Shown here: positions 16,094 through 25,263 of the stretch, in pieces
How the letters are laid out: every line of letters starts with the position of its first letter
Position numbering within the stretch: position 1 is the stretch's first letter
Origin: Lysobacteraceae bacterium SCN 69-320
GTDB lineage: Bacteria; Pseudomonadota; Gammaproteobacteria; Xanthomonadales; Rhodanobacteraceae
Length of the DNA: 64,000 bases
NCBI GenBank assembly: GCA_001725155.1
Contig: MEFP01000016.1
Location: 19,868 to 83,867, forward strand
Direction: 5' to 3'
Translations under genes and position numbers: made by a program
Notes under the pieces: generated by a model
The model's database searches: none
What the model was told of the DNA's origin: nothing
What the model saw: only the letters and a program-made list of their open reading frames with translations

Positions 16094-16906
16094 GTGCCCG
16101 CACGCCTCGCCCCCGACCAGTCCCGCGGCCATCTGATCGCCATCGGCGTCTTCGCCGGTCTCGACAGCGAGCAACGCCTGATCCGCCGACTTCTTTCCAT
16201 CTGCACACAACGATCACAAGTATCTTTTCTCGTTGCCGGCGAGCTCGACATGCGCGCACTGGACGAGATCGAGAACGGCCTGCTCGCCCTCGGCGCCGGC
16301 GGCGTGCGCCGCGTCCATCTGGCCTCCCGCGCCGATGCCGAACGCCCGGAAACGCTCGGAGCGATCGAACATGCCGATCTCATCGTGCTCGCGACGATCC
16401 ATCCGCTGAAGCTGACCACCTTGATCGGCGGCACGAGCCTGGCCAAGCTGCTGCGCCGCCGCAACGCCGACGGCACGCCGATCGCCGGACTCGGCGCCGG
16501 CGCCGCGGCACTGACCGAGCACATGCTGGCCTCCTCCGGCGAAGCCGGCGCAACCCCGCGCATGGGCGCGATCACGCTGGCGCCGGGGCTGGGCCTGACC
16601 AACCGGGTCGTCATCGACCAGGGCGGCGCCGCGAGCGACCGTATCGGACGCCTGCTCGGCGCGCTCGCGCTGAACCCGTTCGCGCTGGGCCTGGGCCTCG
16701 ATGCGGACACGGCCGCCTTCATCGGACCGGACAACGTGCTCGAAGTCGTCGGCCATGGCGGCGTGACCCTCGTCGATCCCAGCGACGTCGGCCCGACCAA
16801 CATCACCGAAGCCGGTCCGCAGGCACCGATCTCCATCACCAACCTGCATCTCCACGCGCTCGTGCACGGCACGCGCTACGACCTGGACTTCCGCCGGCCG
16901 CTGTAG
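16094..16906 (+). CDS. Cyanophycinase-fold (peptidase S51-like) protein, probably catalytically inactive
   Basis: Colinear with CphB: IAGLGAGAAALTEHM, VVIDQGGAASDRIGRLL, LGLGLDADTAAF, GVTLVDPSDVGPTNITEA, ISITNLHLHALVHGTRYDL; GTG start assumed. Confidence 0.8.
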   Translation: MPARLAPDQSRGHLIAIGVFAGLDSEQRLIRRLLSICTQRSQVSFLVAGELDMRALDEIENGLLALGAGGVRRVHLASRADAERPETLGAIEHADLIVLATIHPLKLTTLIGGTSLAKLLRRRNADGTPIAGLGAGAAALTEHMLASSGEAGATPRMGAITLAPGLGLTNRVVIDQGGAASDRIGRLLGALALNPFALGLGLDADTAAFIGPDNVLEVVGHGGVTLVDPSDVGPTNITEAGPQAPISITNLHLHALVHGTRYDLDFRRPL

Positions 16907-17023: not shown

Positions 17024-17515
17024 ATGCTGTCCACCGACTATTCCATTCGTCCCGCGACCACCACCGACAACGCCGCGATCGCTGCGATCATCCGCGAGGT
17101 CATGCCGGAGTTCGGTGCCGGCGGCCCCGGCTTCGCGATCCACGACGCGGAAGTGGACAGCATGGCCGAAGCCTATGCGATCCCGCGCGCCGCCTATTTC
17201 GTGGTCGAGGCGGACGGACAGGTGCTCGGCGGCGGCGGCGTCGCTGCGCTGGCCGGCGGCGAGGCCGACGTCTGCGAGCTGCGCAAGATGTATTTCCTGC
17301 CCGCGCTGCGCGGCCGCGGCGCAGGCCGCGCGCTGATCGAGCATTGCCTGGCCGCCGCGCGCGCCTTCGGCTATCGCCGCTGCTATCTGGAAACCCTGAG
17401 CGGCATGGATGCGGCGCAGGCGCTGTACCTGAGGACCGGCTTCCGCCGCATCGACGGCCCGATGGGCGGCACCGGCCATTTCAGCTGCGACAAGTTCTAT
17501 CTGATCGACCTCTGA
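17024..17515 (+). CDS. GNAT family N-acetyltransferase
   Basis: CELRKMYFLPALRGRGAGRALIEHCLAAAR acetyl-CoA motif. Confidence 0.9.
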   Translation: MLSTDYSIRPATTTDNAAIAAIIREVMPEFGAGGPGFAIHDAEVDSMAEAYAIPRAAYFVVEADGQVLGGGGVAALAGGEADVCELRKMYFLPALRGRGAGRALIEHCLAAARAFGYRRCYLETLSGMDAAQALYLRTGFRRIDGPMGGTGHFSCDKFYLIDL

Positions 17516-18688: not shown

Positions 18689-19252
18689 ATGAAAGCCAGC
18701 GAAATCAAGAAAGGCAACGTCGTCGAGCACGACGGCAAGGTCTACCAGATCCGCGACATCGAACGCAGCTCGCCGCAGGGTCGCGGCGGCAACGTGACCT
18801 ATCGCTTCAGCATGTATACGGTACCCGGCGGGCAGAAGCTGGACCTCAGCCTGCGTGCCGAGGACGACCTGCGCGAAGTCGAGCTGTCACGCCGCCAGGC
18901 GACCTACTCCTACCGCGAAGGCGATACCTTCGTGTTCATGGACGCCGAGGACTACACCCAGTACATGCTCGATGCGAGCGCGCTCGGCGACGCCGCCGGC
19001 TTCGTCATCGACGGCATGGAAGCCTGTTATGTGCAGCTCATCGAGGACCAGCCCGTCGCCGTGCAGCTGCCGCCGACCGTGACCCTGACCGTCGTCGACA
19101 CGGCGCCGGAAATGAAGGGCGCGACCGCCACGAAGCGGCCCAAGCCGGCCAAGCTCGAAACCGGCATCGAAATCCTCGTGCCGGAATACGTCGTCAACGG
19201 CTCGCGCATTCTCGTGAGCACCGTGACCGGCGAGTACTCGGGCCGCGAATAA
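18689..19252 (+). CDS. efpL: Elongation factor P-like protein EfpL/YeiP
   Basis: EF-P three-domain architecture; [40 protein letters not shown] with tip-loop Arg, [25 protein letters not shown] end. Confidence 0.93.
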
Positions 19253-20035: not shown

Positions 20036-20187
20036 CGGGGGCGCTTGCTGGCCTAGGGTGGGTCGCGTATTTTAGCGCGGTTTGTGTCGTGCCCCGTCTC
20101 GTGGCGCGAAAGCATGCCAGGCTTCGCAGGCAGACAGCTGCTGATGGCGCCGGGTCCCAGCAAGAAAAATATGTGGGAGGGGATGCA

Positions 20188-21669
20188 ATGATTTTCTGGC
20201 GCGTAAAGCCGCTCGACCAGATCCTGGAAACCGCAGAAAAGAAAGGCCTCAAGCGTCAGCTCGGCGCGCTGCAACTGACCATGCTCGGCATCGGTGCGAT
20301 CATCGGCACCGGTATTTTCGTGTTGACGGCCGAGGCGGCGCAGAAGGCCGGTCCCGGCATGATGATCGCGTTCGTGATCGCGGCCGTGGTCTGCGGCCTC
20401 GCCGCGCTGGCCTATGCGGAACTCGCCTCGATGGTGCCGGTTTCCGGCTCCGCCTATACCTATACCTATGCAGTGCTCGGTGAAGCGCTGGCCTGGATCG
20501 TCGGCTGGGCACTCGTGCTCGAATACGCGGTCGCCGCCGGTGCCGTGGCCGTCGGCTGGTCGGGCTACGTCAACGGCCTGTTGAATGCCGCCAATCTCAG
20601 TCTGCCGCCCTTCCTGCAGACCGGCCCACTCAACGGCGGTGGCTTCAATCTGCTGGCCTGCCTGATCTCGCTGGTCATCACCGGCCTGCTCATCATCGGC
20701 ACTTCCAAGAGCGCCTGGGTCAACGCCGTACTCGTGACCATCAAGATCGCGGCGCTCATTGCGTTCGTGATCATCGCCGTGCCGGCCGCCAAGGCGCCGA
20801 ACTTCGAACCGTTCATGCCGACCGGCTGGGGCACGCCCATGGGCGGCATCGGCGTGCTCGGCGCGGCCGCGTCGATCTTCTTCGCCTACGTCGGCTTCGA
20901 CGCCGTGTCGACCGCCGCGGAAGAAACCAAGAACCCGAACCGCAACATTCCGATCGGCCTGATCGGCTCGCTCGCGGTCTGCACGATCTTCTACCTGCTG
21001 GTCGGCTACGGTGCGGTCGGCGCCGCCGGCGCACAGCCGCTCTACGACGCGGCCGGCAAGCTGCTCGAACCGGGTACCGACGCGATGGCTGCGGCCTGCA
21101 TCAACTCCACCGTGCTGGTCTGCAGCAACGAGCCGCTGGCTCACGTCCTGCGCTCGCTGGACCACAACACCGTCGCCTATCTCGTCGGCATGGCCGCCAG
21201 CCTCGCCCTGCCCTCGGTCATCCTGATGATGATCTACGGCCAGACCCGTATCTTCTTCGTGATGTCGCGCGACGGCCTGCTGCCGGAAGTCTGCTCCCGG
21301 GTGCATCCGACCTTCCACACGCCGCACGTCATCACGATGATCACCGGCGTGTTCGTGTCGCTGTTCGCGGCGCTGTTCCCGGTCGGCATCCTGGCCGACA
21401 TCTCCAACTCGGGCACCTTGTTCGCGTTCGTCATGGTGGCCGTCGGCGTGATGATCCTGCGCCGCACCCAGCCCGGCCGTGCGCGTCCGTTCCGCACGCC
21501 GCTGGTCTGGCTGGTCTGCCCGCTGGCCGTGCTCGGCTGCCTTCTGCTGTTCGTGAACCTGTCGATGAAGGCGCTGATCGTCTTCAGCTGCTGGACCGTC
21601 GTCGGCCTGGTCGTCTACTTCGCCTATGGCCTGCGCAACAGCGAGCTGGGTCGCCGCAATAACGGCTGA
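20188..21669 (+). CDS. APC-family cationic amino acid permease
   Basis: GIGAIIGTGIFVLTAEAAQKAGPGMMIAFVIAAVVCGLAALAYAELASMVPVSGSAYTY; multiple TM helices. Confidence 0.95.
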   Translation: MIFWRVKPLDQILETAEKKGLKRQLGALQLTMLGIGAIIGTGIFVLTAEAAQKAGPGMMIAFVIAAVVCGLAALAYAELASMVPVSGSAYTYTYAVLGEALAWIVGWALVLEYAVAAGAVAVGWSGYVNGLLNAANLSLPPFLQTGPLNGGGFNLLACLISLVITGLLIIGTSKSAWVNAVLVTIKIAALIAFVIIAVPAAKAPNFEPFMPTGWGTPMGGIGVLGAAASIFFAYVGFDAVSTAAEETKNPNRNIPIGLIGSLAVCTIFYLLVGYGAVGAAGAQPLYDAAGKLLEPGTDAMAAACINSTVLVCSNEPLAHVLRSLDHNTVAYLVGMAASLALPSVILMMIYGQTRIFFVMSRDGLLPEVCSRVHPTFHTPHVITMITGVFVSLFAALFPVGILADISNSGTLFAFVMVAVGVMILRRTQPGRARPFRTPLVWLVCPLAVLGCLLLFVNLSMKALIVFSCWTVVGLVVYFAYGLRNSELGRRNNG

Positions 21670-24192: not shown

Positions 24193-25263
24193 ATGACGGG
24201 CCGCCGCCGCGTCCTGCCTCTACTGACCCTGCTGCTCGGCGCAGCACTCGGTTACGGCCTGCGCGACCGGCTGGTCCAGGACGAAGACCCGACGCCGCCG
24301 CCCGCGACCGAGACCGATTCCGACACCCTGCGCCGTCAGCTCGTGGAGACGCGGGCCTGGGTCGCGCGCTGGCTGCCGCAGCCGGCCGAAGCGACCGAGA
24401 CCGAAGCGCCGGACTACAGCGCCGAGCGCGTGCTCTACGACCAGTACCGCCTCGTCGACGAAGCGCTCGCTCGCCTGCGGCCGCAGACGCCGGGCAAGAC
24501 CGATCTGTATGTCGTGGCCTTCGCCGGCGACGGCGACGAGGACGTGTTCCGCAACGAAACCGAATATGCCGAGAAACTATTTTCCGAGCGCTTCGACGCC
24601 CGCGGCCACGTCGTCGTGCTGCAAAACAATCCGGCCACCGTGGAAACGCGGCCGCTGGCGACCTGGAGCAACCTCGAACTCGTGCTCGACGGCCTGCTCG
24701 AAAAGGCCCGCTTCGATCCCGACGAAGACATACTGCTGCTGTTCCTGACCAGCCACGGCGACGCCGAGCACAATCTCTACGTCGGCATGGACGTGCTGCC
24801 GCTGGACTGGATAGGTGCGTCGGACCTGGCCGAGATTCTCAATGCGCGGCCGTTCCGCTGGCGCGTCGCCATCGTCTCGGCCTGCTATTCGGGCGGCTTC
24901 CTCGACGTGCTGAGGAATTCCACGAGCATGGTCATCACCGCTTCGCGCGCCGACCGCACCTCGTTCGGCTGCGGCAGCGATTCGGACATCACGTTTTTCG
25001 GCAAGGCCTTCCTCGTCGACGGGCTGAACCAGACCGACACGTTCCGCGGCGCGTTCGAGATCACGCGTCAGCTCGTCGCCGAATGGGAGGAGGCCGAAAA
25101 GCAGACCCCGTCGGAGCCGCAGATCGCGAGCACGCCGCTGATCGAAGCCAAGCTCGCCCAGTGGCGCCAGGGCATACGCCTGGGCCCGCCGCAGCCGTTT
25201 CAGCCGGCCGGCGCCGCCTCGGGCGGCAGCGGATCCTCCAGCGAGAAATCGACCAAGCAGTAG
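24193..25263 (+). CDS. C13 (legumain-like) family peptidase, N-terminally membrane anchored
   Basis: LLLFLTSHGDAEHNLYV (His) and VAIVSACYSGGFLDVL (Cys) dyad; N-terminal TM RRRVLPLLTLLLGAALGYGL. Confidence 0.85.
   Translation: MTGRRRVLPLLTLLLGAALGYGLRDRLVQDEDPTPPPATETDSDTLRRQLVETRAWVARWLPQPAEATETEAPDYSAERVLYDQYRLVDEALARLRPQTPGKTDLYVVAFAGDGDEDVFRNETEYAEKLFSERFDARGHVVVLQNNPATVETRPLATWSNLELVLDGLLEKARFDPDEDILLLFLTSHGDAEHNLYVGMDVLPLDWIGASDLAEILNARPFRWRVAIVSACYSGGFLDVLRNSTSMVITASRADRTSFGCGSDSDITFFGKAFLVDGLNQTDTFRGAFEITRQLVAEWEEAEKQTPSEPQIASTPLIEAKLAQWRQGIRLGPPQPFQPAGAASGGSGSSSEKSTKQ

Follow-up and report, generated by a model that had tools for sequence, protein, structure and literature searches.

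CphB, a cyanophycinase of peptidase family S51, is reported to be dimeric. In the Synechocystis protein (PDB 3en0 and 7uqw; TIGR02069) its triad is formed by Ser132, His174 and Glu201; the title of the 7uqw entry gives the number Ser132. An inactive CphB is not in itself a novel idea, as a CphB-fold protein from Pseudobacteroides cellulosolvens (PDB 7uqv) is called 'pseudo-CphB' by its depositors and is reportedly inactive; it keeps Ser, His and Glu in alignment, in contrast to the clade described here, which has lost all three and for which a triad-intact gene, taken by us to be its positional orthologue, is known. According to a published survey (PMC10206079), the usual neighbour of a cyanophycinase gene is cphA1 or an isoaspartyl dipeptidase gene; the gene described here clusters with neither. 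Within the literature searched there was no paper on a cyanophycinase pseudoenzyme or pseudo-CphB, and none describing a clade that lacks the whole triad, has a mapped orthologue with an intact triad in the corresponding position and lies in a context other than cyanophycin metabolism.

The window, which is the whole 64,000-nucleotide stretch of DNA that was analysed, encodes a protein of 270 amino acids with a GTG start codon at 16094 and a TAG stop codon at 16904–16906 on the + strand. The open reading frame and its altered sequence blocks are as follows:

16094..16906, + strand: pseudo-cyanophycinase open reading frame, predicted CphB fold, Ser/His/Glu triad replaced by Gly134, Gly177 and Ala204
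16391..16414, + strand: ATIHPLKL replacing TGGN/DQLRL (Gln101 to Pro104), from residue alignment and clade comparison
16487..16507, + strand: GLGAGAA, the former nucleophile elbow (Ser132 to Gly134), from residue alignment and clade comparison
16613..16630, + strand: IDQGGA, the former His block (His174 to Gly177, Phe175 to Gly178), from alignment, with both Gly residues in 48/48 clade members
16688..16711, + strand: GLGLDADT, the former Glu block (Glu201 to Ala204), from residue alignment and clade comparison

Both the sequence and the predicted structure place the window protein with the cyanophycinases. It scores 150.1 bits against the TIGR02069 cyanophycinase model (cut-off 126.6) and 31.5 bits against Pfam S51 (cut-off 23.9), and its strong sequence matches in the PDB are all cyanophycinases, the best being 7uqv. 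An AlphaFold model (mean pLDDT 91.5, pTM 0.90) compared by Foldseek with 3en0, 7uqw and 7uqv gave TM scores of 0.84–0.88, with 0.84–0.87 for 3en0 and 7uqw and 0.88 for the pseudo-CphB 7uqv, so that the model shows the fold of cyanophycinase (CphB, peptidase S51); the proteins are also alike in length and have colinear blocks. Peptidase E and GATD1 share the fold superfamily and a related alpha/beta fold, although the resemblance is much weaker (TM 0.47–0.63 and E 0.33, respectively).

Residue alignments to 3en0, 7uqw and 7uqv place Ser132, His174 and Glu201 at Gly134, Gly177 and Ala204. A preliminary description of this DNA had claimed that the protein is colinear with CphB and has all three triad positions replaced, and this is upheld by the PDB alignments, the AlphaFold model and TIGR02069. 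Further losses are seen at GGDQ, which reads TIHP (Gln101 to Pro104), at Phe175, which is Gly178, and at the first Arg that follows the HF block. We compared 48 full-length homologues that form a clade with 42 other CphBs. The nucleophile position in the GTSAG elbow is Gly or Ala, and once Glu, in the 48 clade members, and Ser in none; the His position of DQHF is Gly in all 48; the Glu position of DEDT is Ala, Pro, Gly, Val or Thr, and never Glu; and the Gln101 position is Pro in 47 of the 48, with the GGN of the GGN/DQ loop also lost. All 42 comparison CphBs have Q, S, H and E at the same four positions, so that the triad-less state (48/48 versus 0/42) is far beyond chance, and the notion of a lone mutant is ruled out. 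The changes extend to the surroundings of the triad, in that the clade's versions of the conserved CphB active-site loops (GGAE, IPTAS, GGNQ, GTSAG, HF) either carry substitutions or show relaxed constraint, the latter including GGAE, IPTAS and GGN, which vary little or not at all among CphBs. Residues fixed or nearly fixed specifically in the clade are Gly177, Gly178, Pro104, Asn236 and Phe266, and conservation is concentrated in the C-terminal half. No alternative nucleophile is apparent, as neither Ser nor Cys is found at any position that is invariant across 23 clade members. Because the catalytic residues are missing, and given the established chemistry of the family, hydrolysis of cyanophycin by the CphB mechanism should be ruled out, and the pseudoenzyme is, unlike CphB, not expected to hydrolyse this polymer.

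TIGR02069, an equivalog model, nonetheless labels these triad-less proteins 'cyanophycinase': all 23 clade members tested match it, and the 13 listed with scores (140–173 bits) are all above the cut-off. Automatic annotation with this model would therefore name inactive-looking proteins as cyanophycinases, and can lead to too many organisms being counted as users of cyanophycin.

The 48 full-length homologues come from five genera of Rhodanobacteraceae and form a single clade with support of 100/99 or better. Among 198 sampled genomes of the family, those with a full-length member belong to genera g1 (with Tahibacter), g3, g5, g12 and g14 (with a Pseudolysobacter record); these proteins score 365–462 bits as against at most 281 for other CphBs, and none was found elsewhere among 369 genomes of the class. 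Nei-Gojobori estimates of omega are 0.03–0.13 across nine close pairs. Between the window and its relative L002 omega is 0.056 for the pseudoenzyme, compared with 0.140, 0.091 and 0.042 for the neighbouring GNAT, SDR and EfpL genes described below. These values strongly support the view that the pseudoenzyme is under strong purifying selection and is not decaying, as the preliminary description had proposed in calling it a maintained pseudoenzyme. The clade offers a clear case in which catalysis was lost, apparently once, and the protein was then conserved across several genera.

We next consider whether the pseudoenzyme is tied to cyanophycin metabolism. Eight of 13 tested genomes with the pseudoenzyme also have a triad-intact cphB and a full-length cphA1, and five have neither; in the eight, the cphB-cphA operon is located elsewhere and the pseudoenzyme is unlinked to cphA. 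Because five of the 13 lack both cphA1 and a triad-intact CphB, presence of the pseudoenzyme is independent of cyanophycin metabolism. All eight sampled Tahibacter genomes likewise keep the pseudoenzyme and lack a triad-intact CphB. The earlier statement that no cyanophycin synthetase is visible in the window holds and extends to the whole genome, in which a search found neither cphA1 above the cut-off nor a triad-intact CphB. A 578-amino-acid Mur-ligase-like open reading frame on contig C11 was considered as CphA and rejected, as the synthetase model gave it only 73.5 bits against a cut-off of 850. The sole other S51 homologue found in this genome (L074; G000 contig C30, ~813779–814318) is a CphE-like protein of 337 amino acids with an intact triad and a signal-peptide-like N-terminus, and its gene adjoins one for a beta-aspartyl (isoaspartyl) peptidase; the two are possibly a cyanophycin-scavenging pair.

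The triad-intact CphBs closest to the clade are found in another family of the order, f12 (loci L161–L167, n=7), with 43–47% identity to the window protein. Full-length cphA1 is present elsewhere in six of these seven genomes, and the f12 CphB is probably their working cyanophycinase. It retains the triad and the loops, as the pseudoenzyme does not, but its setting is similar: in several f12 loci liuE lies upstream (in L161 and L162 a GGDEF/EAL gene separates it from cphB), and in four of the seven a relative of the same GNAT gene follows 3–30 bp after cphB. The same order of liuE, [GGDEF/EAL], pseudoenzyme and GNAT is found in Rhodanobacteraceae, for example at L130 and L160, whereas none of six loci of other CphBs (L168–L173) has liuE. 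In view of this shared order we take the pseudoenzyme to be the positional orthologue of the intact f12 CphB, and the states before and after loss of the triad can therefore be compared directly between the families. In a GNAT tree the pseudoenzyme-linked and f12-linked proteins, with two unlinked ones, lie on one side of a branch with 98/97 support, and 20 unlinked Rhodanobacteraceae GNATs fall apart from the linked ones; few linked sequences passed the length filter, and this tree is supportive only. A tree of the S51 proteins with outgroups does not by itself fix the branching order of f12 CphB, cphA-linked CphB and pseudoenzyme. A GGDEF/EAL gene lies directly upstream of the pseudoenzyme or the intact CphB at L060, L061, L137, L139, L159 and L161–L163, which span the two families, and may hint at control of the locus by c-di-GMP.

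The conserved neighbours of the pseudoenzyme gene in the window are:

17024..17515, + strand: GNAT acetyltransferase, downstream, for which the analysis gave no substrate assignment and relatives of which adjoin the pseudoenzyme in many loci and the f12 CphB, often with overlapping stop and start codons
17765..18532, + strand: short-chain dehydrogenase (SDR) resembling 3-hydroxyacyl-CoA dehydrogenase type II (HSD10)
18689..19252, + strand: elongation factor P-like protein EfpL/YeiP, probably a neighbour by position only
20182..21669, + strand: APC-family amino-acid permease, for which the best model is BcaP, below its cut-off

Among the 44 pseudoenzyme loci with enough sequence (L009 and L010 being near-copies), 38 have liuE upstream on the same strand, within ~130 bp in 17; its product is HMG-CoA lyase (459.8 bits on its model). 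Genes for a biotin carboxylase and an enoyl-CoA hydratase precede the pseudoenzyme in many loci, and are termed liuD-like from motif and context and liuC-like from a general enoyl-CoA hydratase match, respectively. The SDR is closest to 3-hydroxyacyl-CoA dehydrogenases, type II included, and the neighbourhood of the pseudoenzyme is one of leucine and isoleucine breakdown. In L008, L010, L011 and L014 the pseudoenzyme stop codon overlaps the GNAT start codon (GTGA), with a like overlap in f12; in the window the two genes are 117 bases apart. The window and its close relative L004 have no liu gene directly upstream of the pseudoenzyme; in the window a lysine-aminotransferase-like gene and two unassigned genes are found there, and liuE is on another contig. 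An obligate pairing of pseudoenzyme and GNAT was rejected, since the GNAT is present in 166 of the 198 family genomes, mostly without the pseudoenzyme and then in other contexts, and none of the listed g3 genomes with the pseudoenzyme has it. In part of g5 (L054, L056, L153, L156, L157) two long genes, DUF1501/DUF1800-like by eye, lie ~2–4 kb downstream of the pseudoenzyme in the place occupied elsewhere by the GNAT-SDR block.

The reading we favour, with a probability of roughly 0.7, is that a working CphB gave rise to a catalytically dead CphB-fold protein that is now a non-catalytic binding or scaffold subunit, perhaps linked to branched-chain amino-acid catabolism. The ancestor would have been a functional CphB at a locus of the form liuE-[GGDEF/EAL]-cphB-GNAT, and a common ancestor of several Rhodanobacteraceae genera would have lost the triad and the substrate loops and kept the fold; the protein is now subject to strong purifying selection. 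A binding or scaffold role seems the most likely because the fold is retained, selection is strong and conservation is concentrated in the C-terminal half; this half and the rebuilt cleft (the invariant GG after DQ, and Pro104) may contact a partner. The gene context suggests a candidate partner made with the leucine and isoleucine genes, such as the GNAT, HMG-CoA lyase or the HSD10-type dehydrogenase, and favours a tie with branched-chain amino-acid catabolism over one with cyanophycin; a general regulatory role is also possible. Counting against this proposal, adjacency of the GNAT, SDR and liu genes to the pseudoenzyme is not constant across loci, and a position in an operon can be passively inherited. 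More tentatively, a storage-polymer hydrolase encoded beside a leucine-degradation cluster may have lost all catalysis and been taken over, as a conserved structural or regulatory subunit, by branched-chain amino-acid catabolism, where it would act together with the co-encoded GNAT or with one of the pathway's CoA-dependent enzymes. As a lead on function, the connection with leucine catabolism is testable.

Several other explanations can be set against a binding or scaffold role. Decay into a pseudogene, or an artefact of sequencing, is suggested by the active-site loss and nothing further, and this idea, of negligible probability, is already refuted by 48 full-length open frames from many genomes with omega of 0.03–0.13. 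A new enzymatic activity on the CphB scaffold would use clade-invariant residues such as D175, R183, R186, D203, N236, H254, R261, D263 and R267. Many charged residues are indeed invariant and some fixed states (Gly177, Gly178, Pro104, Asn236, Phe266) are specific to the clade; however, no Ser or Cys is invariant, most of the charged invariants outside the C-terminus are common to CphB and so are probably structural, and the residues specific to the clade (Gly, Pro, Asn, Phe, Leu, Ile) do not form a typical catalytic set, so that we regard this as unlikely.

Two further possibilities retain a connection to cyanophycin. The protein might sense dipeptides derived from cyanophycin or related to these, such as products of the CphE-like enzyme encoded in this genome. 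This has some appeal because the triad-intact S51 protein encoded beside an isoaspartyl peptidase means that beta-Asp-Arg could be produced, but it is improbable given that the loops forming the CphB active site are unconserved in the clade and that other residues stand in place of Gln101 and of the first Arg following HF. The same changes to the conserved loops leave unsupported the suggestion in the preliminary description of an aspartyl/arginyl or isopeptide-type ligand. A role in regulating a genuine CphB, or in opposing it as a dominant-negative partner, for instance within a heterodimer, would fit the reported dimeric state of CphB and the cphB-cphA operon elsewhere in eight of the 13 tested genomes. 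It is the more improbable of these two, as the pseudoenzyme is kept where a triad-intact CphB is absent, including all eight sampled Tahibacter genomes, and in five genomes that also lack cphA1, the window's own among them, and has no linkage to cphA. As a general role the heterodimer was rejected, since the gene persists without CphB.

Elsewhere in the window, a peptidase C13 (legumain-like) gene at 24193–25263 follows three genes read as mtnB, mtnD and mtnC of methionine salvage, and is kept at the same place in close relatives.
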